Assembly (NCBI RefSeq): GCF_000385925.1
Contig: NC_021175.1
Span: 1,652,213-1,716,212, forward strand
DNA: 64,000 bases
Source of the DNA: Streptococcus cristatus AS 1.3089
GTDB taxonomy: Bacteria; Bacillota; Bacilli; Lactobacillales; Streptococcaceae
Direction: 5' to 3'
Every line of letters starts with the position of its first letter. Position 1 is the stretch's first letter. The position numbers and the translations under genes were made by a program. Of the stretch, positions 6,592 to 63,845 are shown in pieces. The notes below the pieces were generated by a model. It was given only the letters and a program-made list of their open reading frames with translations, had not been told where the DNA came from and ran no database searches.

Positions 6592-7261
6592 TGGTCAAAC
6601 CGTACCCTATCCCTTTTTTCGTCTCAATGAAATACTTCAGACCGTGCTCCTCCAGCTTCTTGCGCAAACGGGCAACATTGACAGACAAGGTATTGTCATC
6701 TATAAAGAAATCACTGTTCCAGAGCTCCTTCATCAAGTCATCACGCGCCACGATACTACCGGAATGCTCAAAGAGCACCCGCAAGATCTGAAATTCATTC
6801 TTGGTCAACGTTACAAGCTCGCCCTCATAGACCAAATCCATGGACTTAAGATTTAAAATCACGCCCTGATATTCCAAAAGGCTTTGATCCGTTCCAAACT
6901 CATACGATCGCCTCAGCAGGCCTTGAACTTTTGCCAGAAAGACATTATTATCAAAAGGCTTGGTCACATAGTCATCTGCGCCCATATTGATGGCCATGAC
7001 GATATCCATGGACTGGTCGCGCGAAGATAGAAACATAATTGGCACCGTCGAAATCTTCCGAATTTCCTGGCACCAATGGTAGCCGTTAAAGAGGGGCAGA
7101 CCAATATCCATCAGCACCAGCTGGGGCTCCTCCTTGACAAAGGTCGTCAAAACCTGCATGAAATCCTCAATCGCCACAACCTGATAGCCCCACTGCTCCA
7201 GCATTTTTTTGATCATTTGACGGATAACCGCATCATCCTCGACCAGTAAAATCTTGTGCAT
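6575..7261 (-). CDS. OmpR-family response regulator (BceR-like)
   Basis: 228 aa. The receiver domain has the acidic pair in LLVEDD, phosphoacceptor Asp52 (LVLMDIGLP) and Lys101 (TKPFDNN). The C-terminal winged helix (about 125-225) carries LTKNEFQILRVLFEHSG and SVNVARLRKKLEEHG. It is the first gene of the kinase unit. It is expected to activate the BceAB-type genes (3.9-4.7 kb); no binding site was identified with confidence. Confidence 0.92.
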   Translation of the reverse strand: MHKILLVEDDAVIRQMIKKMLEQWGYQVVAIEDFMQVLTTFVKEEPQLVLMDIGLPLFNGYHWCQEIRKISTVPIMFLSSRDQSMDIVMAINMGADDYVTKPFDNNVFLAKVQGLLRRSYEFGTDQSLLEYQGVILNLKSMDLVYEGELVTLTKNEFQILRVLFEHSGSIVARDDLMKELWNSDFFIDDNTLSVNVARLRKKLEEHGLKYFIETKKGIGYGLTNGHAG

Positions 7262-7383
7262 TCCATTTCCTCACTCATTTTTCTTACTGCTATTATATCA
7301 AATTCTCCCTTAAATCACAGAGACTTTTTTAGTTTGAAAATCATATTGTTTTCAGAAATTTTCAAGAAATCATTCAAGAAGTG

Positions 7384-7412
7384 TTGACAAAAATAGAGTA
7401 AAAAGATAAAAT
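7384..7412 (+). promoter_or_regulatory. Sigma-A type promoter of the Nramp-like gene
   Basis: TTGACA (7384-7389), a 17-bp spacer and TAAAAT (7407-7412). It lies 55 bp before the ATG at 7467, which has AAGGAG upstream. Confidence 0.75.
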
Positions 7413-7466
7413 AACACTACATTCAGAATTGTCTGAAAATTCATTTTTTATAATAAGGAGATTATT

Positions 7467-8726
7467 ATGCTAGAACAAACTCAGACATCTACCTGGCAGT
7501 CAAAACTGAAAGCCCTCGGTCCCGGGATCCTCATGGCCTCTGCTGCTGTTGGTGGCTCTCACATTGTTTCCTCGGCTCAAGCAGGCGCCAAGTATGGCTG
7601 GGCTTTGATGGGACTGGTCATCTTGGCCAACCTCTTCAAATATCCCTTCTTCCGCTTCGGTGCTGAGTACACCTTAGAAACTGGTCATAGCCTGGTTGAA
7701 GGCTATGCTCAAAAAGGAAAAGTCTACTTGGGCATCTTCTTCGTTTTAAATGTCTTCTCCGCCTTGGTCAATACAGCAGGGGTCGGGATTCTCTGTGCTG
7801 CTATCATCGCCAGCGCCTTTCCAAATGCCCTTGGGCTCAGTATTACTCAATGGTCGCTGATTCTCATCATCCTGATCTGGGCAATGCTACTCTTTGGTGG
7901 CTACAAGTTCCTTGATGGCCTTGCCAAATGGATCATGTCCGCTCTAACCTTTGCAACCGTTATTGCGGTCATCGTTGCCATTATCAAGCATCCTGAGTAC
8001 GGAGCAGACTTCGTTGAAAAGACACCTTGGCAGATGGCTGCCTTACCTTTCATCGTTTCTCTCATGGGCTGGATGCCAGCTCCAATCGAGATTTCAGCAA
8101 TCAACTCCCTCTGGACTGCTGAGAAAGGAAAATCTGTTAATATCTCTGTCACGGACGGACTTTTTGACTTTAATGTTGGTTATATTGGAACGGCCATTCT
8201 GGCCATCTTCTTCGTCGCTATGGGCGCTCTTATCCAGTATCCAACTGGTCAAGCAGTTCAGGATGCTGGGGCTGCCTACATCCAGCAATTCGTTGGGATG
8301 TACGCATCTGTCCTTGGTGATTGGACACGGATTCTGATTACTTTCATTGCCTTTCTCTGTATCTTCGGTACCGTTATTACCGTTATCGATGGCTATTCTC
8401 GTGTAAACGCTGAATCCCTACGCCTCCTTCTCAATGAAGAGAAGACTTCTCAAAAAAATCTGCATATCTGGATGACAGCTACAGCCATTATCGGTGGCAT
8501 TATCATCTACTTCTTCCAAGGTAGTGTGGCCCTCATGCTTCGTTTTGCCATGATTGCTTCCTTCCTGACGACTCCATTTTTTGCCCTTCTAAACTATCTC
8601 CTCGTTACGAGCGAAAATAAACATCTGGGTAAATGGCTAAAAGGTCTTTCCATCCTTGGTTTGATCTTCCTCTTTAGCTTCGCTTTATTCTTTATCTACG
8701 CCATCCTCATCGGTAAAGCTTACTAG
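7467..8726 (+). CDS. Nramp-family transporter, atypical metal site
   Basis: 419 aa with about 11 transmembrane segments and the Nramp opening LGPGILMASAAVGGSHI. Classical Mn/Fe Nramp proteins have a DPGN motif in helix 1 and an MPH motif in helix 6, which bind the metal. Here the corresponding places read VGGSH and MGWMPAPIE, so the canonical Asp, Asn and helix-6 His are absent. It therefore belongs to a divergent branch, and Mn(II) uptake should not be assumed. It stands alone with its own promoter and a terminator hairpin directly after it. Confidence 0.8.
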   Translation: MLEQTQTSTWQSKLKALGPGILMASAAVGGSHIVSSAQAGAKYGWALMGLVILANLFKYPFFRFGAEYTLETGHSLVEGYAQKGKVYLGIFFVLNVFSALVNTAGVGILCAAIIASAFPNALGLSITQWSLILIILIWAMLLFGGYKFLDGLAKWIMSALTFATVIAVIVAIIKHPEYGADFVEKTPWQMAALPFIVSLMGWMPAPIEISAINSLWTAEKGKSVNISVTDGLFDFNVGYIGTAILAIFFVAMGALIQYPTGQAVQDAGAAYIQQFVGMYASVLGDWTRILITFIAFLCIFGTVITVIDGYSRVNAESLRLLLNEEKTSQKNLHIWMTATAIIGGIIIYFFQGSVALMLRFAMIASFLTTPFFALLNYLLVTSENKHLGKWLKGLSILGLIFLFSFALFFIYAILIGKAY

Positions 8727-8729
8727 ATC

Positions 8730-8779
8730 AAAAGAGCTGGAAATACTGAAGAATATCTTCAGCTTTCCGCTCTTTTCTT
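8730..8779 (+). terminator. Terminator of the Nramp-like gene
   Basis: AAAAGAGC ... GCTCTTTTC arms enclose a further GAAGA/TCTTC stem, followed by a T-rich run just past the stop codon at 8726. Confidence 0.75.
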
Positions 8780-8845
8780 TTTCCCTTTCTGACAACTAGC
8801 CCCTACTTATGCTATACTGTAAGAAGATAGAATATGGAGAACGAT

Positions 8846-10051
8846 ATGGGAATAATTTTTGATTACCTAGACCAAGTAGCTTACGACAGTATCTACGACA
8901 CCCCCTTTAATGAACTGGATATGCTGATGCTGACGGAGATAACTTATCTGCCTTTTGACCAGATTGTGTCTGATCAGATATCCCCTGATTGTACTTGCCG
9001 CTTGTTTGAAGCTGCTGAAAAGATGCCCCAAGATTTGTCCATGTTGGTGACTAAAAATCGTCTGAAACTTTTAGAAAAGGTAGCTAGCTCAACCCGCTTC
9101 AAAAATATCAAGCTCATGGGCTATGTCAATGATATTGACCCTGATGTCCAAAAGCAGTTTGCAGCTATGATCTTCAAAATCAAGCCCGATAGTTATGTCC
9201 TGACCTTCCGCGGAACTGATGATTCCATTATTGGCTGGAAAGAGGACTTCCACATGACTTATATGGATCAGGTACCAGCTCAAAAAACGGCGGTCAATTA
9301 TCTGCGAAAAGCCATGGATGTTCTGCCTGGTCAGTTCATCCTGACTGGTCACTCAAAGGGCGGAAATCTAGCCTCCTACGCTGCTAGTCAGATCGAGCCA
9401 GAATATCAAGAGCGGATTCAGATCATTTACAGCTATGATGCCCCTGGACTGAATCACTCGGTCATCACCAGTCAAGGCTACCAAACTATTTCAGACAAGA
9501 TAAAGCGCTACATTCCGCAAGGCTCTATCGTCGGAATGATGCTCGAAACACCCAAGCAGGCTCAGATTGTCAAAAGTACAGCTATCGGCGGTCTGGCCCA
9601 GCACGATACCTTCACTTGGCAGATCAGTGACCAGACTTTTGTCCTACTGGACAACCTCAATCCAGACAGCCTTCAAGTAGATAAAACTCTGAAAAACTGG
9701 GTTGATAGCGTTTCTGATGAGGAATTAAAAGACTTTTTTGACCTCTTTTTCGGTCTCATCCTAGATGCTGGTATCAGCTCCATTAATGACCTCACCAAGC
9801 TGGAAAATTTCAACAAAATCTTAGCTGTTTTTGAAAATGCTAACGCCCTCACAGACCATGAGCGGGAAATGCTGACGCGATTAGCCAAACTACTGGTAGA
9901 CATGCGCTACCAGTCTTGGAAAGACGACATAAACCTGCTGAAGCCTAGCAAACTTGTCCAAGAGGTCAAGGAAAATCTATCCGAATTCACTAAGAATCTT
10001 CCTTTCACAAGCAATGATCCCGCTCAAACAGATGAACCCAATGAGCAATAA
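8846..10051 (+). CDS. Mbeg1-like (DUF2974) alpha/beta hydrolase
   Basis: About 401 aa, cytoplasmic. The nucleophile elbow GHSKGGNLASY (around residue 175) and a preceding beta strand YVLTFRGTDD match lipase/esterase-like DUF2974 proteins, which are common in lactic acid bacteria with no assigned substrate. Asp of YSYDAPG and a later His (GGLAQHDTFTW) are reasonable triad partners. I start at the second ATG (MGIIFDYLD), because GGAG sits 8 bases before it; the first ATG at 8834 has no RBS. The C-terminal quarter is helical and charged. Confidence 0.8.
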   Translation: MGIIFDYLDQVAYDSIYDTPFNELDMLMLTEITYLPFDQIVSDQISPDCTCRLFEAAEKMPQDLSMLVTKNRLKLLEKVASSTRFKNIKLMGYVNDIDPDVQKQFAAMIFKIKPDSYVLTFRGTDDSIIGWKEDFHMTYMDQVPAQKTAVNYLRKAMDVLPGQFILTGHSKGGNLASYAASQIEPEYQERIQIIYSYDAPGLNHSVITSQGYQTISDKIKRYIPQGSIVGMMLETPKQAQIVKSTAIGGLAQHDTFTWQISDQTFVLLDNLNPDSLQVDKTLKNWVDSVSDEELKDFFDLFFGLILDAGISSINDLTKLENFNKILAVFENANALTDHEREMLTRLAKLLVDMRYQSWKDDINLLKPSKLVQEVKENLSEFTKNLPFTSNDPAQTDEPNEQ

Positions 10052-18233: not shown

Positions 18234-18521
18234 CTACAAAACAAGCTCTTGGCAATCGAGAAATAGATGTTTGACAGTATTGCTTAAATGATGTTCTATT
18301 TCAAGTTTTCTCTTTCGCCCACAGTGTGATTTTGCGAGTTTATAAGATGCTTGGGCTTTGTTGAGAGAATAACTTGCTGATTTTATATGTCATTTCCATT
18401 CCCGACTAATGCTGGAAGGATGACGATGAAGTAATTTCCCTCTTTGAGAGAAATTCAATACTTTTGCACGGTAAATCAGAATACTTTCGTGTTCTTCTAT
18501 GGTAAAATGGTGATAGCTCAT
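18234..18521 (-). pseudogene. Decayed IS30-family transposase (N-terminal part)
   Basis: From an ATG with AAAGGA upstream (18521) it reads MSYHHFTIEEHESILIYRAK ... HPSSISREWK, the IS30 helix-turn-helix region. It then meets a TGA at 18390 and continues in the same frame as HIKSASYSLNKAQASYKLAK and CGRKRKLEIEHH, which match the next IS30 segment, before a TAG at 18234. The catalytic DDE region is missing. It is therefore a truncated and nonsense-mutated remnant lying just outside the bacteriocin-like island. Confidence 0.8.
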
Positions 18522-18629
18522 GAGATTTCCTTTCGTAACTAGTTCGTTCAATTCTATTTTACTAGAAAATCTTATGAGTTTTTTATTGTGCACTTATACT
18601 GTATATTCAAGGCCAAAAAAGCAAGTCGA

Positions 18630-18705
18630 TTGACCTGCTTCTGCTTTACTTTTCTTGCGCTAATGCTTTAAAATCTTGTCCTAGGATGGGTTTTATTCCT
18701 AGAGT
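18630..18705 (-). pseudogene. 3'-end fragment of a DUF4299 gene (left flank of island)
   Basis: On the minus strand this reads TLGIKPILGQDFKALAQEK then stop, against VQPILGQDFEGLAQEK at the end of the intact DUF4299 gene (25391-26266). A TGA immediately precedes the match, so only about 19 codons survive. The DNA aligns with 25380-25445 at about 85% by hand count, apart from a 6-bp CTGCTT duplication. The two copies bracket the island as direct repeats. Confidence 0.8.
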
Positions 18706-18811
18706 TCATTAGTATCATAATATTGCTACGAAATGCTTTAATCCAAATATTATACAAACTAGTTATAGGTAAACTTAAGATTGGAAACCACCAATCTCCA
18801 TTTTTTAAATG

Positions 18812-20842
18812 TTAATGAAACTCATCCATATTAATAACTTTACTTGCTCTAGCAATAACATCCTTATCATGAGTCACGACAATAACAATCTTTTCCTCGC
18901 TCACTAATTTCTCAACCTCATTTAGGAACAATTCAGTTGAGTTTCTGTCCAAATTTCCTGTAGGCTCATCGAATAGATAGATATCTTTTTCTTGCGATAA
19001 ACTCCTCATGAGTAGAATTTTTTGCTTCTGACCTTGCGAAATATTGGTGGCTTTCCCATCAATCTGATGACTCAGAGCTACATTGAGATTCAGACCATCA
19101 AAATTATTTAATTCATAGTTTTCCTTATTAAATAAGTTAAAATTAATATTTTTTGAAACACTTCCGGGGAACACATGAAATTCAGATGAATACACGCTTA
19201 AATAATCAAAAATATTAGTCTCCTCTAAAGTAGAAAAACTTTCTATCCCATTCAGTACAATATCACCCTCTGTTGGAGAAGACAATCCCTGAATAATATT
19301 CAAAAGAGATGATTTCCCAGTTCCATTACCGCCTATAATGACGGTTAATTCACCACTATTAAACTCACAATTTAATTTATTAAATACCAACTTTTCATCC
19401 CATTTTTTATATAAATTTCGGCATGACAATTGTTCAATTTTAGATACTGGAATTGTAACAAGATTACTTTCCAGCCCTACTTCCTCTAGTCCAATAAACT
19501 CAAAGGAATATTGACTTTTTTTCAATGCTACCCAAGATGTAATTAAAGAATTCAAAATGCTGGATAAAAGTAATAGAATCAAAATACTATTTGAATACTC
19601 TGATATATGTGCGTAATCTCTAATAATATTCACAGTAACAATCAAAAATGAACCAGTTAAAGCGATAAATATCTGCGTAGAAGCTAATAGTCTATTGGTA
19701 ATATGTGTACTATCTAGTTTCGTTCCCAACAGTTCATCTAGTCTTTTATCAAATTCTTTGATAAAGTCGCCAGATTTTTGGAAACTTATAATATCTTGCA
19801 AACCATAAATTGTATTTTCTACAAGAGAGCTAAAGTTAGAACTCTTAGCAATGAATTCTCGCTGATTTTTTACAACTTTACGTATCTCAAAATTAACATA
19901 TAAACCAAGAATAGCTATATATAAGCATGTAACTGCGAAAATTATGATATTCACTTTTAATAACAATAACAGTAGCAAACAAAACACTAAAAGCTGCACC
20001 TTTAAGTAAAATTTTTGCATAATACCTGTTGCTGATAATAATAAATTCCAAAAATAACTACTAACGTACTCATAATTCTTAGTTAAGGAAAAATCATTTA
20101 ATTGGTTCTGATAAAAAGAGGACAGAATATCATTTAAAAAATCATTCTCAATCTTTCCTTTTAATCTCGTTTCTAATATAGAGAACTGCCAATACAAATA
20201 TGAAGCTAATATTATTGAAGCTAGGGTAAATAGCTGAATACTAAACTGAATGTTAAGCAGACCAGACATCGTTATTTGTAGTAAAAAAGCAATAGCAACA
20301 GGTAAACTAATTTTAGCTAATCCCAAGAAAAAGATTGCAAACTTTCTCTTCCAACCAAGTGAAGCTAGAAATCTATGATACAACTTATCTACATAGCTTA
20401 TCGTAACAGCAGCTTTTCTATCTTCTGAATTAACACTCTCACTCTTTTGGGGAATTAAAACAATTCCTACACTCTGACTAAAAAGTTCTAATCTTGAAAT
20501 TTTCTCAATTTCCTCATTTGCAGGATCAGAAACCGTCAATGAATTACTGTCTCCATCTAATACAACAATATAATGAGGTAAACCAGCTCTTTCTACTACC
20601 ATCAAATAAGGAAATGATACGTTATTTAACAAACTAGGAGTGTCAATTTGATAAGAATCCGCATCAATACCATAGCTTTTTAATACATCTTCTATTTCAA
20701 ACAAAGACAGTCCTTGGTGATTATTATTATCAAATTGTAGACTATCTAAATGTTCTAATTTTGGGAAATAGTAAGAAATGATTGTCTTTACACAAGCCAT
20801 TCCACAATCCAGCAAAGTTGCTTGTTTATAGTGACTAACCAT
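18812..20842 (-). CDS. Peptidase C39-containing ABC exporter for bacteriocin-like peptides
   Basis: About 676 aa. The N-terminal C39 protease starts MVSHYKQATLLDCGMAC: oxyanion Gln7 and catalytic Cys13. The catalytic His is in LPHYIVVLDGD (about residue 90) and Asp in VSDPANEE. Then come about six membrane helices (about 165-435) and an ATPase with Walker A GGNGTGKSS, a variant signature ISQGQKQK, and Walker B YLFDEPTGNLD. Such proteins cut leader peptides after a double-glycine-type site while exporting the cargo. I start at the second Met because AAGGAG lies 7 bases before it. It is the last gene of the island; its likely cargo is the two peptides at 23.1-23.3 kb. Confidence 0.92.
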   Translation of the reverse strand: MVSHYKQATLLDCGMACVKTIISYYFPKLEHLDSLQFDNNNHQGLSLFEIEDVLKSYGIDADSYQIDTPSLLNNVSFPYLMVVERAGLPHYIVVLDGDSNSLTVSDPANEEIEKISRLELFSQSVGIVLIPQKSESVNSEDRKAAVTISYVDKLYHRFLASLGWKRKFAIFFLGLAKISLPVAIAFLLQITMSGLLNIQFSIQLFTLASIILASYLYWQFSILETRLKGKIENDFLNDILSSFYQNQLNDFSLTKNYEYVSSYFWNLLLSATGIMQKFYLKVQLLVFCLLLLLLLKVNIIIFAVTCLYIAILGLYVNFEIRKVVKNQREFIAKSSNFSSLVENTIYGLQDIISFQKSGDFIKEFDKRLDELLGTKLDSTHITNRLLASTQIFIALTGSFLIVTVNIIRDYAHISEYSNSILILLLLSSILNSLITSWVALKKSQYSFEFIGLEEVGLESNLVTIPVSKIEQLSCRNLYKKWDEKLVFNKLNCEFNSGELTVIIGGNGTGKSSLLNIIQGLSSPTEGDIVLNGIESFSTLEETNIFDYLSVYSSEFHVFPGSVSKNINFNLFNKENYELNNFDGLNLNVALSHQIDGKATNISQGQKQKILLMRSLSQEKDIYLFDEPTGNLDRNSTELFLNEVEKLVSEEKIVIVVTHDKDVIARASKVINMDEFH

Positions 20843-20918
20843 TATTTTCTCCTTTTTCAACACTTATCTTACTATAGCCATCAACTTCAATGATGCTATT
20901 CGAAGTTTGATTTGTGGT

Positions 20919-21414
20919 AGGAACCCTTAAATTTCTCCTGTATTGTTTGTATGTAAAGTATAAATCCCATCAAAATCTTTAGGGACTGTAATAAATACAT
21001 CGCCAACAAGAGTATCTATAAATATTTTTCGAAGGTAGCATTTTTCCCTAAGGAAATAGTTACATATAACTTGTCTTTCCCTTCTGAACTCAGAGCCAAA
21101 TTAAAACCATGTTGTGAAAATGGTAGATATAGACTATCTGAACTCATTTTAACGTTTTTAGATATATTATTCGCTGATTCTTCGGAAACTTTTCCTTCTA
21201 TTTGAACACTTGTTTCATCTGATTCACTCTTGAGAACTTTAACATCAATTGCTTGCTTTGAGCCATAAAACTCTAACGTTTTAATACTTTTAGAAGAAAG
21301 AGCCCATGATTGTTTCACACTGATTGTCGTCTCTCCTCGTTTTAAGGTTAATAAAATTCCAGCTACTACAAACAGTAACAACAGCCCAATTACAATTCCT
21401 ATTTTTTTCATCAT
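20919..21414 (-). pseudogene. DUF4097-like membrane-anchored protein, frameshifted
   Basis: The open frame (21016-21414, 132 aa) has an N-terminal anchor helix (IGIVIGLLLLFVVAGILLTL) and a beta-rich domain with repeated acidic and Ser-rich strands. It ends abruptly at NATFEKYL. Reading on in the next frame from the same point gives KIFIDTLVGDVFITVPKD and then ...YTLHTNNTGEI-stop, the usual DUF4097 beta-helix repeat with G-D-V pattern. One extra A in the run after TTCG would restore a single protein of about 165 aa. The gene lies in the transporter unit of the island, between the permease and the C39 exporter. Its role is unknown. Confidence 0.65.
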
Positions 21415-21422
21415 TAGTCCTC

Positions 21423-22115
21423 CTACTTAAATTCTTTTTTACTAAATACAGCTAACGCAAGCACAAGTACTGCTATACTCACCACTATAGGATAGCATAC
21501 GTTTGTAAGGGTAAATTGACTTACCTCAGGGGAAGCTTTCAAATTTAAAGTCATAAGTAAATAGTCTTTCACACTCTCACCAGAATTTGGAAGGACGTAA
21601 GCCAATAGGTTATCAAATAGTAAAATGTAGAGTGTATAAATCATACATGACTCATAAACCTTATCAAATATTTGAAAAATCAATAACGAGATACTGATAA
21701 TAACCAAATAGTATGGTAGTTGGTGTAAAAATGTCGAAACAATCAACACCATGTCCCCTTCCAAATAAACAAGAGCTGTTAAACTATAAAAAATAGACAC
21801 ATATAATAAAGACAAACAAAAGGTTCCCAAAGTTTTATATAAAAACAACTTCCATCGTTGTTTTTCTTTTGTGAGCAAAATATTAATCGTACGGAAACTA
21901 TAATCTTCTCCCCAGAAAAATAAATTAGTAGAGATGAAAAGCAAAGGAATAAAACCACTCACATTTGAAATCAAAACTCGAAATGCCGGATCATTTTCAT
22001 TTGATGACTTAAAAAACAAGGAGAATAACAAAATTAATAATCCTATCAACAAACTAGGAAGCACTCCTCTTTTTTCCCAGTAAAATTTATACATATCTGC
22101 CTTAAGAGAATTCAT
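21423..22115 (-). CDS. ABC-2 permease, probable self-immunity transporter
   Basis: 230 aa with six hydrophobic segments (about residues 20-36, 50-68, 98-118, 128-148, 160-175, 205-225), opening MNSLKADMYKFYWEKRG, the typical start of small lantibiotic-immunity/ABC-2 permeases (LanE/LanG and BcrB-like). It follows the ATPase gene by 24 bp on the same strand. In this setting it most likely removes the island's own peptides from the membrane. That is inference from position; the sequence gives no substrate. Confidence 0.8.
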   Translation of the reverse strand: MNSLKADMYKFYWEKRGVLPSLLIGLLILLFSLFFKSSNENDPAFRVLISNVSGFIPLLFISTNLFFWGEDYSFRTINILLTKEKQRWKLFLYKTLGTFCLSLLYVSIFYSLTALVYLEGDMVLIVSTFLHQLPYYLVIISISLLIFQIFDKVYESCMIYTLYILLFDNLLAYVLPNSGESVKDYLLMTLNLKASPEVSQFTLTNVCYPIVVSIAVLVLALAVFSKKEFK

Positions 22116-22138
22116 GACTCTCCTCCTTTCTTAAATCA

Positions 22139-23002
22139 TCAGATAATATTACGCAAATAGTAGTCCTCAAAGCGTTCCTTCTTAATATAAATATCCTGTA
22201 TCACTAGATTTGACGCGACACTATATTGCAAAATAGGCATTAATTTTTCCTTTTCTGTAACAACCAGATAGTCATCCTGCTCAAAATGAACAATGCCCTC
22301 TTTTTCTAAAAACATTTTTAGAATCTGATTATCACTTGTCTTTAGGAAAATTTTTTCAGAAAAATCATTCGCTAGCTCTTTTGAACTCATCACATTTAGA
22401 ATCTTTCCTTTTTTCATGATGATATACTTATCTGTTATAAATTCCAATTCTGACAGAATATGACTCGAGATTAAAAAAGTAACTCCTAACTGATCCCTTA
22501 AATTCAAAATCATCTTTCTTAAATCTGAAATCCCTTGAGGATCTAAACCATTCACGGGTTCATCTAAGATAATAAGCTCTGGATTATCCAAAAGCGCAAT
22601 CGCAATCGATAACCTCTGCTTCATTCCAAGGGAATAGTTTTTTACTTTTCGATCCCATGACGGTTCAGGCAAGTGAACCAATTCCAACATTTTTGTGATA
22701 TCTGTCTTTAAACCAAATCTTGTTTTATAATATTGCAGGTGTTGACGTCCAGTCAAGTTTGGGTAGAGGGCAGGTGATTCGATAATACTGCCGATCTTAT
22801 GCTGCGAAACACTCTCGATTTCTCCCTTATCAGCTCGAATTAGTCCTAGAAGAATCCTCATTAACGTTGTCTTTCCTGCACCATTTTCACCGATAAGACC
22901 ACATATTTCTCCTTGTTCAATATCAAAGGAAATATTATGGAGAACCTGTTCTTTCCCATATGTTTTATCGATATTTTTAAGACTTAAAATCACACGATTC
23001 AT
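22139..23002 (-). CDS. ABC transporter ATPase, probable self-immunity transporter
   Basis: 287 aa. Walker A GENGAGKTTL near residue 38, signature YSLGMKQRL near 125, Walker B LIILDEPVNGLDPQG; the YSLGMKQR signature is typical of BcrA/LanF-type ATPases. The C-terminal third is the usual variable extension. It follows the two peptide genes and their terminator, and precedes the permease. Known members confer immunity to lantibiotics or bacitracin-like agents; here immunity to the neighbouring peptides is inferred. Confidence 0.88.
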   Translation of the reverse strand: MNRVILSLKNIDKTYGKEQVLHNISFDIEQGEICGLIGENGAGKTTLMRILLGLIRADKGEIESVSQHKIGSIIESPALYPNLTGRQHLQYYKTRFGLKTDITKMLELVHLPEPSWDRKVKNYSLGMKQRLSIAIALLDNPELIILDEPVNGLDPQGISDLRKMILNLRDQLGVTFLISSHILSELEFITDKYIIMKKGKILNVMSSKELANDFSEKIFLKTSDNQILKMFLEKEGIVHFEQDDYLVVTEKEKLMPILQYSVASNLVIQDIYIKKERFEDYYLRNII

Positions 23003-23025
23003 CGTTTCTCTCCTTTCATTATATT

Positions 23026-23066
23026 AAAAAGTCTCTGACAAGGAGTGAACCTTGCCAGAGATTTTT
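23026..23066 (-). terminator. Terminator/attenuator after the peptide genes
   Basis: On the minus strand TCTCTGGCAAGG and CCTTGTCAGAGA form a 12-bp stem (one G-T) with loop TTCACT, preceded by AAAAA and followed by CTTTTTAAT. It lies between the peptide genes and the immunity ATPase, so peptide mRNA could be more abundant than transporter mRNA. Confidence 0.85.
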
Positions 23067-23074
23067 AGCTTACG

Positions 23075-23191
23075 TTAACTCCAGCAGAAGAATCCAATAC
23101 CTACAATCATTCCAACAATACCATATGGTGAAAGTGCACAAAATTGACCTGCCACAATGTCCTTTTTATTTTTATTGCTTAGTTTTTTCAT
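23075..23191 (-). CDS. Small bacteriocin-like peptide 1 (38 aa, two Cys)
   Basis: This ORF has a strong RBS (AGGAGG, 8 bases before ATG). It encodes a basic N terminus MKKLSNKNKKDIVAG and a hydrophobic, Gly-rich remainder starting QFCALSPYGIVG and ending GFFCWS. The same plan (IVAG, basic or polar residue, FC, ending FCW plus one residue) occurs in the neighbouring 32-aa peptide, which marks both as real genes. If the C39 exporter cuts after Ala-Gly, the mature product is about 23 aa with Cys at positions 3 and 21, suited to one disulfide. I do not recognise a described bacteriocin family. Antibacterial function is inferred. Confidence 0.75.
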   Translation of the reverse strand: MKKLSNKNKKDIVAGQFCALSPYGIVGMIVGIGFFCWS

Positions 23192-23207
23192 TACTTTATC
23201 CTCCTAT

Positions 23208-23306
23208 TTAATCCCAGCAAAATATACCTCTTCCATATGAGAGACCTATAATACAAAAGCGACCTGCTACAATGTGTCTTTTGACACGTCCAGTTAGTTT
23301 TCTCAT
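23208..23306 (-). CDS. Small bacteriocin-like peptide 2 (32 aa, two Cys)
   Basis: The ORF follows a strong RBS (AAGGAGG, 8 bases before ATG). Residues 1-15 (MRKLTGRVKRHIVAG) are basic; residues 16-32 (RFCIIGLSYGRGIFCWD) are short, hydrophobic and bounded by two cysteines. It is a paralogue of the 38-aa peptide 16 bp downstream. Spacing differs: 11 residues between the Cys here against 17 in peptide 1. A two-component bacteriocin, or a toxin with a second variant, are both possible. The upstream thioredoxin-like gene fits disulfide formation. Confidence 0.75.
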   Translation of the reverse strand: MRKLTGRVKRHIVAGRFCIIGLSYGRGIFCWD

Positions 23307-23358
23307 CAGAAAACCCTCCTTTTAAAAATTTTTATAATAACCAAATGAGATTCTCATC

Positions 23359-23949
23359 TCAATTATTTATTAACTGTTTTAAATCTTTAGACAACATTTC
23401 TTCGCTTCCTTGTTCTACATAAATTTGTTTCACTACACCATCTTTATCCACTATAAAGATAGTTGGGATAGCTTTTACATCAAAAAACTTAAAAGCTTGT
23501 AAATCTTGATCTATATAAATTGGAAAGGTGAAACCCTGATTCCTTAAAAATTTATGAGAGGTTTCAAGTGTTTCACGTTCACCATCGACTATATCCACCA
23601 TAAAGAAATCAACTTTATTTTGATATTTATCATAAAGTCGCTGAATGATTGGGAGCTCTTTTTGACAATCAGGACACCAACTAGCCCAAAATACCACAAC
23701 CTTTGGTCTAAACTTATAATCTGATAATTGAACCTGTGCTCCCTCATTGGAGGTTAACAATGCATTCTTGAATGTAGTATTTTTAGTTTTTGAAATATAT
23801 TGTTTTATTTCCTCTTCTTTTTTTAAAAGTAGCTCTTGTTTTGTTTCTTCTTGATGATGAGATTCCTGGTTTTGATAGTAAAATCCTGCTAAAAATAAAG
23901 AAGCTATCACAAGAAGAAACATTGTCTCTACAACATATTTTTTGGGCAT
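23359..23949 (-). CDS. Membrane-anchored TlpA/thioredoxin-like thiol-disulfide oxidoreductase
   Basis: 196 aa. One N-terminal anchor helix (residues 7-24, MVETMFLL-type with FLLVIASLFLAGFYY) is followed by a charged linker and a thioredoxin fold with active site WCPDC at 91-95 (Cys92, Cys95) and the cis-Pro loop KAIPTIFIVDKDG. It therefore acts outside the membrane. Its start codon shares one base with the stop of the 75-aa gene (TAATG), and it directly precedes the two Cys-containing peptides, which are its likely substrates. Oxidation rather than reduction is inference. Confidence 0.88.
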   Translation of the reverse strand: MPKKYVVETMFLLVIASLFLAGFYYQNQESHHQEETKQELLLKKEEEIKQYISKTKNTTFKNALLTSNEGAQVQLSDYKFRPKVVVFWASWCPDCQKELPIIQRLYDKYQNKVDFFMVDIVDGERETLETSHKFLRNQGFTFPIYIDQDLQAFKFFDVKAIPTIFIVDKDGVVKQIYVEQGSEEMLSKDLKQLINN

Positions 23950-24176
23950 TATTGACTATCCTCCACTTCTGAAATTTTAAAGCTTTCAATAATAGATAAT
24001 TCTTCTGGTAAGATTAAAACACGCTCTTCACCTGCATCTAAAATAGCTAAACGGAATAACTCCTTGTTTAACTCGATTCGTACCAACTTTTGCTCAGTGG
24101 TGTTATTTCGAACTATCAGACTGTGGCGAGTTTGTGTAAAAGTCTCGAGTGAGATACTAAAATCTTCCATTTCCAT
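23949..24176 (-). CDS. 75-aa protein of unknown function in the peptide unit
   Basis: A soluble acidic protein (MEMEDFSISLETFTQTRHSL ... IESFKISEVEDSQ) with no cysteine and no membrane segment. It is locked between the ComS-like ORF, whose stop overlaps its ribosome-binding site (TAGGAG), and the thioredoxin-like gene, which overlaps its stop. Translation is therefore probably coupled. A second ATG two codons in is better spaced from GGAG. It could be an accessory or immunity protein; I do not recognise it. Confidence 0.7.
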   Translation of the reverse strand: MEMEDFSISLETFTQTRHSLIVRNNTTEQKLVRIELNKELFRLAILDAGEERVLILPEELSIIESFKISEVEDSQ

Positions 24177-24179
24177 CTC

Positions 24180-24230
24180 CTATCCAGAAAACCAAAAACT
24201 AAGACTTAAGAATACTGCAAATCCAAACAT
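24180..24230 (-). CDS. ComS-like 16-aa hydrophobic pheromone candidate
   Basis: MFGFAVFLSLSFWFSG, preceded by AAGGAGG at 8 bases. ComS of S. mutans is a 17-residue peptide also beginning MF, hydrophobic, Trp-containing near its C terminus and encoded directly after comR; this ORF has the same size, character and place relative to a ComR-like gene. The C-terminal part would be the exported and re-imported signal. Alternatives: a leader peptide that only couples translation to the 75-aa gene, whose start is 3 bases downstream. Confidence 0.6.
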   Translation of the reverse strand: MFGFAVFLSLSFWFSG

Positions 24231-24265
24231 TTTTCTTTCCTCCTTATCTCTTGTTCTTTATGACT

Positions 24266-24312
24266 AGAGTATAGCGCTTTCAAAAAGAAGAAAACATGAC
24301 AAAAATGTCATG
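24266..24312 (-). promoter_or_regulatory. ComR-box-like operator and promoter of the peptide unit
   Basis: A perfect inverted repeat CATGACA-AAAA-TGTCATG (24295-24312) contains the GACA(N4)TGTC core of ComR-type boxes. Downstream on the minus strand is a TATACT -10 box at about 24268-24273, with no good -35 at 17 bp (TGTTTT), as expected for an activated promoter. The repeat sits directly after the regulator's stop codon; without a T tract it is unlikely to be only a terminator. Confidence 0.65.
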
Positions 24313-25236
24313 TCAGCTCTTCATTTCCTCAAAAGTTTTTAAATCTTTTTCTTTTTCTCCTAATATACGCGCTTCTAATACTGAGTCCCCAAATGCTTGA
24401 GCACAAACAATAGCTCTGTCATATAATTGGATAGCTTTTTCCTTATCCTGTTTATGAAATAAGGTACACATAGCATCTAGCATATCAATAATTGGCTTAT
24501 TTTGAAAATCCTGCGATATAATCATCAATGTGTTCATTGCCTTAACATAAGGCTCAAAAGTGGAGTAAGATTTTTCCATCCATTGAACAGCTAAAGAATC
24601 AAGCACCGTTCTCTTTAACATATAGGCTGTCTCTAAGTCTGATGAATTTGTTTCTCTCATAAGTTTTTTAGAAAGCATCCAAAATAGTTCATGATTATAC
24701 TCAGTCGGTCTTGCTAAACATGAAACAAAGTACAGCTTTATCAAAAGCAAATCATTCACCGAATAGTTTTTCCTTATCTTTACTTGTTCAAAATACTCAT
24801 CAAGCAAAGCATCGCCAAACCCTGCATCTTCACTTACAAAGACATCAAAACTAGCTTGTAGAGCACTAACTGCAATCTGCTCATCCTCAGGTAGACTGTC
24901 ATAATAGTGTTCGTAAACTCTATCAAACAACTCTTCCTTAACCTGGATCCTATCATCATCTCCATAAGTTTGAAACTTAATTAGTTTATCCTTTAATATC
25001 AAGTACCCTGAAGGTAAAATCATATGATCCATATCTACTATATGTGAAATTGGACAACCTAGTTTGTAAGCTATATACTCTACCTTGGATAAACTAGGAG
25101 AAGATTGACCTGATTCAATCCGTGCTAATTGGCGCACCGTTATCTCAGTTTCATCATCACAAAGAGCTTCACGAGTGATATGTTTCATCTCTCGCAACAT
25201 TCGGATTCTTTTACCCACTTCCTTCTTTATATCCAT
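24313..25236 (-). CDS. ComR-like Rgg-family pheromone-responsive regulator
   Basis: 307 aa. An N-terminal XRE helix-turn-helix (residues 1-66, with TVRQLARIESGQSSPSLSKV) is followed by a TPR-like helical domain. The stretch ITREALCDDETEITVRQLAR ... LIKFQTYGDDDRI is closely similar in pattern to ComR (ELTVRQLIRIE and LIKFPTY in the ComR I remember), so I place it with ComR/ScuR/SarF rather than SHP-type Rgg. ComR binds a short imported peptide and activates a GACA-TGTC box; such a box and a ComS-like ORF follow immediately. It probably controls the peptide cluster. RBS CAGGAG precedes the ATG. Confidence 0.85.
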   Translation of the reverse strand: MDIKKEVGKRIRMLREMKHITREALCDDETEITVRQLARIESGQSSPSLSKVEYIAYKLGCPISHIVDMDHMILPSGYLILKDKLIKFQTYGDDDRIQVKEELFDRVYEHYYDSLPEDEQIAVSALQASFDVFVSEDAGFGDALLDEYFEQVKIRKNYSVNDLLLIKLYFVSCLARPTEYNHELFWMLSKKLMRETNSSDLETAYMLKRTVLDSLAVQWMEKSYSTFEPYVKAMNTLMIISQDFQNKPIIDMLDAMCTLFHKQDKEKAIQLYDRAIVCAQAFGDSVLEARILGEKEKDLKTFEEMKS

Positions 25237-25379
25237 CTTAAGATCTCCTGATAATTAATTACTGAACAATATTATATTTTTTGATATAATTTACTACTTT
25301 TTATTAAACTAAGCAATTTTTGAAATTTCATATTACAAAACTTAACTACGCTAAACTATCTTTCGCACGCTAAATAGAC

Positions 25380-25445
25380 GTTGACCTGCTTTACTTTTCT
25401 TGTGCTAATCCTTCAAAATCTTGTCCCAAAATAGGTTGTACTTCT
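25380..25445. repeat. Right-flank direct repeat of the island
   Basis: The 3' end of the intact DUF4299 gene plus 11 bp beyond it. It matches 18630-18705 in the same orientation at about 85%, apart from a 6-bp indel. It could be an attachment-like site or mark an old tandem duplication. Confidence 0.65.
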
Positions 25446-52971: not shown

Positions 52972-53020
52972 TGCAAACGTTTTCTGTATTTATTATACAG
53001 ATTATCTATCGAAATGTAAA
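52972..53020 (-). promoter_or_regulatory. Pullulanase promoter with overlapping cre site
   Basis: On the minus strand TTTACA (53015-53020), 17 bp, TATAAT (52992-52997); a cre-like TGCAAACGTTTTCT (plus strand, 52972-52985) covers the expected transcription start, so CcpA would block initiation. Confidence 0.8.
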
Positions 53021-53322
53021 GGTTTTCACAGATCATTTTTTATTCCAAAGCTTTATGTATGATTTCAGATTAGTTTCATACGAAATTCACCAGCTCTCTC
53101 TTTGTTGCTTAAGATAATGAAACTAAATATTTCTTTAGACTCATCAAAAAAAAGCTTTTCTTTCATAAAGCTTTTCTTTTAAAGTTTTTTAATGTAGTTC
53201 AACCCCTGATTACTTTTTGGTGTTAGATTCACTACCGCTTTCCTTAGGTATCTCCTGCATTCAATAGCACTGTCTGTTCTTTTAGAAAGATAAGGTTTTC
53301 CCAAACTTTAAAGAAAATCAAA
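53021..53322. other. Gap upstream of pullulanase
   Basis: AT-rich; contains a direct repeat AAAGCTTTTCTTT at about 53150-53180. No gene recognised. Confidence 0.4.
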
Positions 53323-53556
53323 CTAATCTACATAGAAAAATCTTCTATAAATTCGCGCAATCGTTAAAATTATGATTAAAAGTATAGCTATTATAGACAA
53401 TACTATTTTCCCAAAACTTACTTCCGAACCGACTATAAAAATGTGAAAGAGAGGTGCCAATCCTACACCTATAGCAATTAGATAACTAACAAGGTTTATT
53501 GCACCAAGACCTGCAAAAAATGTTTCATTTTAAATACCCAACTTTTTAACTTTCAT
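53323..53556 (-). pseudogene. Small membrane protein gene with early stop codon
   Basis: Read from the ATG at 53556 the frame gives MKVKKLGI, a TAA at 53530-53532, then NETFFAGLGAINLVSYLIAI and a second helix (GKIVLSIIAILLIIILTIAR) ending FFYVD. Apart from this codon it would be a 77-aa protein with two helices. It follows the 71-aa gene at 53584 on the same strand by 28 bp. Confidence 0.6.
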
Positions 53557-53583
53557 TTTCTAATGACTCTCTCTAAATCAATT

Positions 53584-53799
53584 TCATTGCTTACTTCTCG
53601 CCTTTTCAAAGAAATTTGATAGTAAATGTGCTCCACTGAGGGCTATTACTATGTCAATTGGTAAGAAATAGTAATCCCATATAAAATGAGACACAATCAA
53701 TAATAGAAATAGAATACAATCAATATAACTATTCTTAAAATGTTCTGCGATTTTATGATATAGAAATACAGTAATAACTGAAATCAAAACAATCGTCAT
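53584..53799 (-). CDS. Small membrane protein of unknown function
   Basis: 71 aa with a strong RBS (GAGGAGGATAAGT before ATG). Helices at about residues 2-14, 26-45 (YIDCILFLLLIVSHFIWDYY) and 47-62, with a basic tail FFEKARSKQ. The pattern resembles small Blp/Abi-associated membrane proteins, but I cannot assign a family. Followed by the broken small membrane gene. Confidence 0.65.
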   Translation of the reverse strand: MTIVLISVITVFLYHKIAEHFKNSYIDCILFLLLIVSHFIWDYYFLPIDIVIALSGAHLLSNFFEKARSKQ

Positions 53800-54222
53800 A
53801 CTTATCCTCCTCTAATCTGCAAATAATCCATGTATTCACCTGCTCTAAGCTCTCCCTCTTCTTAGAATTTTTCAAGTGGCTTAAAGCTTTTAACAATACA
53901 ATCTATTAGATACTTCCTGTTTCCTATTATATCAATTATTATTTAGTCCATAAAGTTTTTATGTATAAATACCATACAAAAACAGACAGAAACTTCTTCA
54001 ACATTATCAATGTTTACTAGCAATTTAAACTTCCCCATATAGCCGTATTCAAATAGTTATTAAATCCAAAGATCTCCCTCAAAAACTCTCTTCTAAAGAA
54101 TTGCTCTTTAGGAGATTTTCTATTATCTCTTTCTTTTCTTACTTAGACTGACTAGACCATTCCTCATCTCTAAAAGACCTCGTAAAAATCGTAAGAAACG
54201 AAAGCGATTTATCCTATAAACA
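53800..54222. other. Long AT-rich gap
   Basis: No gene recognised. A hairpin TCTAAAGA-ATTGC-TCTTTAGG at about 54090-54115, followed on the plus strand by GATTTTCT, is a possible terminator. Confidence 0.4.
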
Positions 54223-63624: not shown

Positions 63625-63845
63625 CAGCACTAGGTCTGTCCTCTGTTCTATTTGAACAAACAAAAGAACCACATCCGACAGTCCTAGGCTATTGTGACCT
63701 AGGGGCGTCAAAACGCGGTTCCACCCTAATTTATTACTTCATTACCTTTAAAAATATTAACCGAAAGCGCCATCTGCACTGCTTCCCTATCTGGCTCCCA
63801 CCAACCCAGACTCGCTAAAAAGTAGACAATGAGAATTCTTTCTAA
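63625..63845 (-). promoter_or_regulatory. T-box riboswitch of glyQS
   Basis: The T-box sequence AGGGTGGAACCGCG lies at 63714-63727 (minus strand), preceded by the AGTCTGGGTTGGTGGGAGCC stem region and followed by a terminator (CCTAGG repeats, GGTTCTTTTG). Uncharged tRNA(Gly) would stabilise the antiterminator. I do not assign the specifier codon. Confidence 0.88.

Follow-up and report, generated by a model that had tools for sequence, protein, structure and literature searches.

Pediocin-type bacteriocin systems combine a C39 exporter with the disulfide protein PedC and single-gene immunity, and YGNGV near the N terminus of the core marks class IIa. Bactofencin A, a class IId bacteriocin of Lactobacillus salivarius, is described in passages of PMC5465099 as a short core of 22 residues with one Cys-Cys loop, made with a leader and encoded together with an ATP-binding cassette (ABC) transporter, a thioredoxin-family accessory protein and an immunity gene. 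In the pneumococcal rtg system, as presented in parts of PMC7018657, an Rgg-family regulator (RtgR) and a short Trp-bearing pheromone (RtgS) control a peptidase-ABC exporter (RtgAB) and several double-glycine (GG) peptides. In the salivaricin control of Streptococcus salivarius, the ComR-type regulators ComR, ScuR and SarF act directly on bacteriocin promoters via ComR boxes, according to passages of PMC6703854. Here, we analyse a 64,000-nucleotide (nt) stretch of Streptococcus cristatus AS 1.3089 (contig NC_021175.1; the whole stretch is hereafter the window), which contains an island resembling these systems at 18812-25236. The observed gene content, conservation, coding constraint, promoter geometry, and joint presence and loss of genes make it likely that the island is a self-contained, quorum-controlled system for a disulfide-closed, C39-exported bacteriocin with its own immunity.

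A preceding sequence-only reading had known of no described cluster with this gene set. The architecture is of the kind known from bactofencin, pediocin and rtg. The peptide family, like ComR control in enterococci, was not found in the literature searched; six core strings gave no match there, and no described cluster of this kind was among the literature matches listed. In the S. salivarius systems, the bacteriocin promoters lie away from the regulator and the peptides are of another type. Bactofencin A differs from the island in its highly basic core and in having one structural and one immunity gene, and no ComR control was found in the passages of PMC5465099. The rtg system, in the parts of PMC7018657 drawn on here, uses an Rgg and not a ComR regulator and has a ComB-like accessory protein; its presumed immunity genes are located behind most of the peptides and encode small hypothetical proteins, and the word thioredoxin is absent from the main text.

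Gene content and promoter of the island

Every element that the sequence-only reading had listed was located, all of them on the minus strand. In minus-strand order, the island comprises the following features.

24313-25236, minus strand: ComR-type peptide-sensing regulator, 307 residues (PF18710 ComR_TPR 1.9e-64, plus HTH_3)
24293-24314, palindrome without assigned strand: ComR box, best read as such, GACATGACATTTTTGTCATGTT on the minus strand, one mismatch to AACATGACAnnnnTGTCATGTT
24268-24273, minus strand: -10 element TATACT, 19 nt from the ComR box
24180-24230, minus strand: ComS-like pheromone open reading frame (ORF) of 16 codons, MFGFAVFLSLSFWFSG, behind the ComR box
23949-24176, minus strand: small all-beta protein, 73 residues from the ATG at 24170 (75 from 24176), from the ORF and the start used in relatives
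23359-23949, minus strand: TlpA/ResA-like thioredoxin, WCPDC motif, hydrophobic stretch at the N terminus (PF08534 4.9e-22)
23208-23306, minus strand: peptide A, 32 residues, MRKLTGRVKRHIVAG / RFCIIGLSYGRGIFCWD (leader / core), from ORF, peptide profile and motif scan
23075-23191, minus strand: peptide B, 38 residues, MKKLSNKNKKDIVAG / QFCALSPYGIVGMIVGIGFFCWS (leader / core), from ORF, peptide profile and motif scan
23032-23061, minus strand: terminator-like hairpin separating the peptide genes from the ABC genes, from a hairpin scan
22139-23002, minus strand: ABC-2 ATPase, putative immunity (PF00005 3.2e-29)
21423-22115, minus strand: permease of the ABC pair, putative immunity, present in all eight island copies
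21016-21414, minus strand: accessory protein gene, 132 codons, N-terminal hydrophobic stretch, from comparison with island relatives
18812-20842, minus strand: C39 peptidase-ABC exporter, 676 residues (PF03412 2.2e-17, PF00005 3.2e-24)

The island has a GC fraction of 0.324, against 0.431 for the remainder of the window, in line with the AT-richness noted earlier.

The regulator has the helix-turn-helix and ComR_TPR domains of the ComR family, as does its counterpart in E. quebecensis (PF18710 9.5e-60). It matches a ComR chain in the PDB at 8.9e-53 and is 92-97% identical in the seven other genomes that carry the island. A ComS-like ORF is located nearby, behind a AACAnGACAnnnnTGTCnTGTT-type box with one mismatch in the window. 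The palindrome, which extends into the end of the regulator gene, scores also as a terminator-like hairpin. It is best read as a ComR box, given the match, the spacing and the fact that it recurs in enterococcal loci at places away from the regulator stop. No palindrome of this grade arose in 100 shuffles, and the same box is found in six of the seven other island genomes. Moreover, TAnnnT lies exactly 19 nt from the box in 22 of the 23 island boxes listed, the exception being GATAAT in locus L189, and at none of nine other GACAnnnnTGTC sites of the same loci.

The ComS-like ORF differs between the window and its relative G217 by one base, which replaces one residue and is uninformative about selection. 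The C terminus of its product reads FWFSG; a W and a C-terminal G also occur in MIAILPFWLVLG, the S. salivarius consensus for the ScuR pheromone (passages of PMC6703854). ComR boxes at 19 nt from a -10 element, followed by ComS-like ORFs, occur in streptococcal and enterococcal loci alike, which supports the quorum control proposed in the sequence-only reading.

The same genome contains further ComR-type sites. A perfect ComR box at G000:C1:1776505-1776526 (around 5506-5527 of L215), 60 kilobases (kb) beyond the window, lies 19 nt from TATAAT, and two GG-leader ORFs of 57 and 90 residues are located downstream of it, followed by genes that we take to be comA-like (723 residues) and comB-like (451 residues). 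This second box, which was found at up to one mismatch in none of the seven other island genomes, possibly controls a further bacteriocin operon under the same regulator. In addition, a second ComR_TPR regulator at G000:C1:56127-56801 (L210 3915-4838) is associated with a GACATTTCTGTC site that has TATAAT 19 nt away, and an apparent ABC ATPase start lies downstream of the regulator. Either this regulator or that of the island may act at the perfect box.

The two-cysteine peptide family

Both window peptides have two cysteines and a leader ending in AG, which gives cores of 17 and 23 residues. AG and GG are sites of the double-glycine type, which C39 peptidases cut, and the AG sites next to a C39 exporter place both peptides with the class II precursors that carry double-glycine leaders. 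Cleavage would occur after AG, and one Cys-Cys disulfide probably closes each core.

Compared with G217, which has a third peptide copy, the cores differ at 2 of 17 (A) and 5 of 23 (B) residues and the leaders at 0 of 15 and 2 of 15. Peptide A has 7 base changes and 2 residue changes, with a ratio of nonsynonymous to synonymous rates (dN/dS) of ~0.38, and peptide B has 16 and 7, with a dN/dS of ~0.37. A neutral simulation expects 4.9 and 11.1 residue changes (P 0.015 and 0.012 for so few), a constraint based on just 7 and 16 base changes.

The peptides were searched in sets of one genome per species; the loci are related, so that their counts do not represent independent events. With a profile of 11 peptides, 14 of the 284 Streptococcus genomes were matched at E<=0.005. 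Peptides not conserved beside the exporter would have spoken against the bacteriocin proposal of the sequence-only reading, and this was not the case: all 14 genomes have a peptide adjoining the C39 gene, the ABC pair or both, although five of them have no intact C39 gene nearby. A 15-row profile matched 17 of 395 Lactobacillales genomes, from three of 80 genera: four are Streptococcus, and the other 13 belong to a second family, with 12 in one genus and one in another. We call this second family enterococcal because its loci resemble named Enterococcus loci and because the matches listed for its small protein include Enterococcus proteins. Eleven of the 13 second-family genomes were fetched, and the peptides adjoin a C39 gene in 10 of the 11. 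G530 had a weak profile match (5.5e-4) that the motif scan did not confirm.

The motif scan covered 35 loci (556 kb) with a pattern drawn from the family, AG/GG included, and serves as a specificity check rather than an independent discovery. It gave 88 matches on the coding strand against 2 on the opposite strand, and the 88 represent 37 different cores, spread over 27 Streptococcus and Enterococcus-type loci. The Cys spacing is 10 in 25 of the cores, 6 in five, 11 in four, 17 in two and 9 in one, and one core has a third Cys. Two 12-mers, WVCIGWGFICWG from Streptococcus and WVCVLWGAVCWG from an enterococcal locus, form a nearly identical core. Enterococcal-type loci contain from one (L181) to nine peptide copies, with at least two in 12 of 13. 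The eight loci without a match are six peptide-less islands (see below), L188 and the Weissella plasmid L223. On the latter (Weissella hellenica pMBEL1842, typed mobilizable), positions 6807-9446 encode a 41-residue AG-leader two-Cys peptide with a longer N-terminal stretch, together with an adjoining C39-type exporter (25.6% identity to that of the window) and a CPYC thioredoxin.

Two known classes were considered and rejected. YGNGV is absent from all 37 cores, which excludes class IIa, and no modifying enzyme of a lanthipeptide or radical S-adenosylmethionine type of ribosomally synthesised, modified peptide was found among the nine island products by Pfam and NCBIfam.

The two-Cys peptides might instead be signals, or effectors acting on the host or biofilm, with the ABC-2 pair serving as sensor, importer or clearance pump. 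The short cores (12-23 residues) and the established export of pheromones by C39 exporters would fit a signal, and so might the invariance of the core QICLYYWYGIGFLCWD across seven S. suis-type loci (the label S. suis-type for the five loci that lack an intact C39 gene is taken from P0037). However, tandem arrays hold several different cores per locus, a separate ComS-like or Agr-type signal gene is present already, and some island copies retain the ABC genes without any peptide. We regard signalling as an unlikely role and favour a bacteriocin.

Partner genes and exchange of regulators

Partner genes were searched in the 27 peptide loci by tblastn with reference proteins (E<=1e-4). At least half of a C39 gene was found in 21 loci, a permease of this type in 25 and a thioredoxin-fold protein in 19. 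The C39 gene of G126 is split into two ORFs, and the permease was not found in L179 and L181. For the C39 gene in the window, ATG 20842 is the more likely start. Twelve of the 284 Streptococcus genomes have a match to the exporter at E<=1e-30, which in three of them consists of short pieces only.

The window thioredoxin matches NF002854 ResA at 8e-26, below the cut-off, and its N-terminal stretch may act as a membrane anchor. TIGR01295, the PedC/BrcD bacteriocin maturation disulfide isomerase, is not among the 25 families listed for it. The thioredoxins of E. quebecensis match TIGR01295 at 6.1e-11 and 7.5e-9, and the scores in relatives (42.4, 35.6 and 34.8 bits) are below its 120-bit cut-off; the enterococcal likeness to PedC/BrcD is a weak one.

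The small beta protein was present as an ORF in the sequence-only reading, which gave it 75 residues; the length is corrected here to the 73-residue form that starts where its relatives do. An AlphaFold2 model built from 39 sequences (pLDDT 87.5) has six strands, and generic matches to solved structures suggest an Ig-like sandwich. The window protein and a 68-residue enterococcal protein, which holds the equal place in gene order, align with an hhalign probability of 16% (E 0.0016). The beta protein is found solely in ComR-type loci and, by tblastn at the same threshold, was not found in Agr- or RNPP_C-type loci. Because it is also kept in all six peptide-less islands (73-77% identity to that of the window), it may be a regulatory or immunity partner.

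For the ABC-2 ATPase, the best NCBIfam model is the lantibiotic protection ATPase TIGR03740, with 203.3 bits in the window and 220.1 in a relative, below the 309.75-bit cut-off. The permease matches no Pfam or NCBIfam family above cut-off. For the accessory protein, the earlier label DUF4097-like was not supported, as Pfam gives sub-threshold matches only (e.g. GAPT, DUF7330, DUF5605 and LiaF-like_C). The hairpin between the peptides and the ABC genes rests on its position, because three such sites were found in the region with 2.0 expected; a hairpin followed by T's is visible by eye at the equivalent place in L031-L036.

These assignments bear on a division of labour in which the ABC-2 pair is the main exporter, the C39 protein is for maturation only and the beta protein confers immunity. 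The second-best NCBIfam model of the ATPase, also below cut-off, is the phenol-soluble modulin exporter PmtC, five S. suis-type loci combine a peptide and the ABC pair with no intact C39 gene, and the beta protein is present in every peptide-less island, all of which would suit such a scheme. However, a peptidase and an ABC domain are both present in the C39 protein, and the beta protein was not found in Agr- and RNPP_C-type loci, where immunity would still be needed. We hold this arrangement to be quite improbable, and export by the C39 protein with immunity through the ABC-2 pair is preferred.

Three receptor types (ComR, RNPP_C and Agr) accompany one effector gene set, and regulators are exchanged between clades. 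ComR with the small protein occurs in the mitis-type islands and in seven enterococcal loci (L039 and L182-L187), and L189 has a ComR-like gene (36% identity to that of L039) without the small protein. Most ComR-type enterococcal loci are arranged in the order regulator, small protein, ATPase, permease, accessory protein, C39 exporter, thioredoxins and peptides, with variants in L183, L187 and L189. One to three ComR boxes are located between regulator and small protein. Short ORFs with WW follow the box in six of the seven enterococcal-type loci looked at, for example MELLNMVRELWWNQ (three copies, two variants), MEWLKRFREIWWNI, MKLWSILCNLWWRI and MGGFDIFGIWWVQ; the ORF of L189 has a single W, and L186 is outside this ORF check. 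WW is a feature of type-II sigX-inducing peptides, according to passages of PMC5131902. The S. suis-type loci possess an RNPP_C-type regulator (PF18768 1.1e-8), and L037, L042, L180 and L190 an AgrB (PF04647 9.9e-25), with neighbours that are presumably kinase and LytTR genes. In these four loci, a tandem array of several different two-Cys cores lies beside the AgrB-type gene. In G078, no ComR, RNPP_C or Agr regulator was seen beside the peptides.

Islands with and without the peptides

ComR at >=92% identity and the ABC ATPase at >=93% co-occur in eight of the 284 Streptococcus genomes, G000 (the window), G217, G220, G240, G084, G258, G029 and G107. We place the relatives in the mitis group by protein matches named S. 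oralis and S. pseudopneumoniae. Just two of the eight, G000 and G217, possess ComS, thioredoxin and peptides. The six others retain ComR, the beta protein, the ATPase and its permease, and an accessory gene of full length; no ComS-like ORF is found behind their box, and the peptide profile has no match elsewhere in their genomes. Five of these six non-producers retain the ComR box at the 19-nt spacing. In G107, no ComR box was found, and a gene of transposase-like appearance is inserted between ComR and beta protein. Among the non-producers, G084 and G240 have a full-length C39 gene and G220 has none, whereas short pieces remain in G029, G107 and G258, the last of these with an internal stop.

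In 200-nt bins, compared without G107, pairwise identity is ~80-99% over ComR, the ABC genes and, where present, C39. It falls to 65-77% at the beta protein, and a gap extends across thioredoxin and peptides; the ComS-thioredoxin-peptide block was therefore probably exchanged as one piece. Because the ABC genes are kept without the product in six islands, they are best explained as immunity genes, which agrees with the immunity suggested by the sequence-only reading. The receptor and box kept without a pheromone suggest that the non-producers may respond to the pheromone of their neighbours. A parallel exists in rtg, where most strains without RtgAB retain RtgR, as stated in parts of PMC7018657.

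The same comparison could be taken for a decaying island that makes nothing active in most relatives and perhaps also here. The accessory gene of the window is interrupted, C39 is shortened or absent in four of the eight islands, and the peptides are missing from six. Yet both peptides are constrained between the two producers, dN/dS between the window and G217 is 0.11 for the thioredoxin and 0.15 for C39, and the ATPase frame is open in each of the seven other copies, at 93-97% identity. Decay is given very little weight, and we return to the active bacteriocin system.

In this system, the C-terminal part of the ComS-like peptide would be imported and bound by ComR, and the complex would switch on the promoter 19 nt from the box, raising the output of ComS, beta protein, thioredoxin and the two precursors. 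If the genes form an operon, read-through of the hairpin would express the genes for transport and immunity at a lower level. The C39 exporter would cut after AG and export a core of 17 or 23 residues, the thioredoxin may close or proof-read the single Cys-Cys loop outside the cell, and the product would kill susceptible cells. The ABC-2 pair and the accessory protein would provide immunity by removing the product or shielding against it.

Several observations weigh against this proposal. The palindrome is compatible also with a terminator of the regulator gene. Five of the 14 Streptococcus peptide genomes (G014, G111, G119, G149 and G156) have no intact C39 gene nearby, with a fragment in G149, and two of six named Enterococcus C39 loci, L038 (E. 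caccae) and L041 (E. moraviensis), are without such a peptide. A thioredoxin was not found in eight of the 27 peptide loci, namely G078, G277, the five C39-less S. suis-type loci and G098, which reaches a contig end; moreover, omission of the bactofencin accessory thioredoxin in E. coli did not abolish disulfide or activity, as passages of PMC5465099 report. The loss of ComS, thioredoxin and peptides may be a single exchange and so count once. Finally, the accessory frame, open for 193 codons in all seven island relatives, is interrupted after 132 codons in the window, with the remainder in other frames.

Outside the system, a short GTG-started ORF at 18390-18593, which we take from its appearance to be a transposase remnant, lies at the downstream edge of the island. 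A further strongly AT-rich stretch is found at 53001-54000 of the window (GC 0.293), and the minus strand carries the Streptococcus small RNA SpR19 at 63706-63827 (90.8 bits).

Competence in the mitis group is assigned to ComCDE in passages of PMC6703854 and PMC5131902, and Enterococcus is paired with PrgX, with ComR placed mainly in Streptococcus, in parts of PMC9765709. The loci described here would extend ComR-box/ComS-type control to enterococci and the mitis group. We tentatively put forward, as a possibility somewhat short of an even chance, that the peptides constitute a new bacteriocin family (AG/GG leader, 12-23-residue core, C-x6/10/11/17-C loop, often ending in CW), that ComR is one old control serving warfare and not competence in enterococci and mitis streptococci, and that the six peptide-less islands are eavesdroppers, with kept receptor, box (in five of six) and immunity, armed by the pheromone of producers. 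The peptides define a family of very small, readily synthesised candidate antimicrobials that come with genes for a pheromone and for immunity. The natural islands with receptor and immunity genes and no pheromone would make eavesdropping on a bacteriocin signal testable by peptide addition alone.

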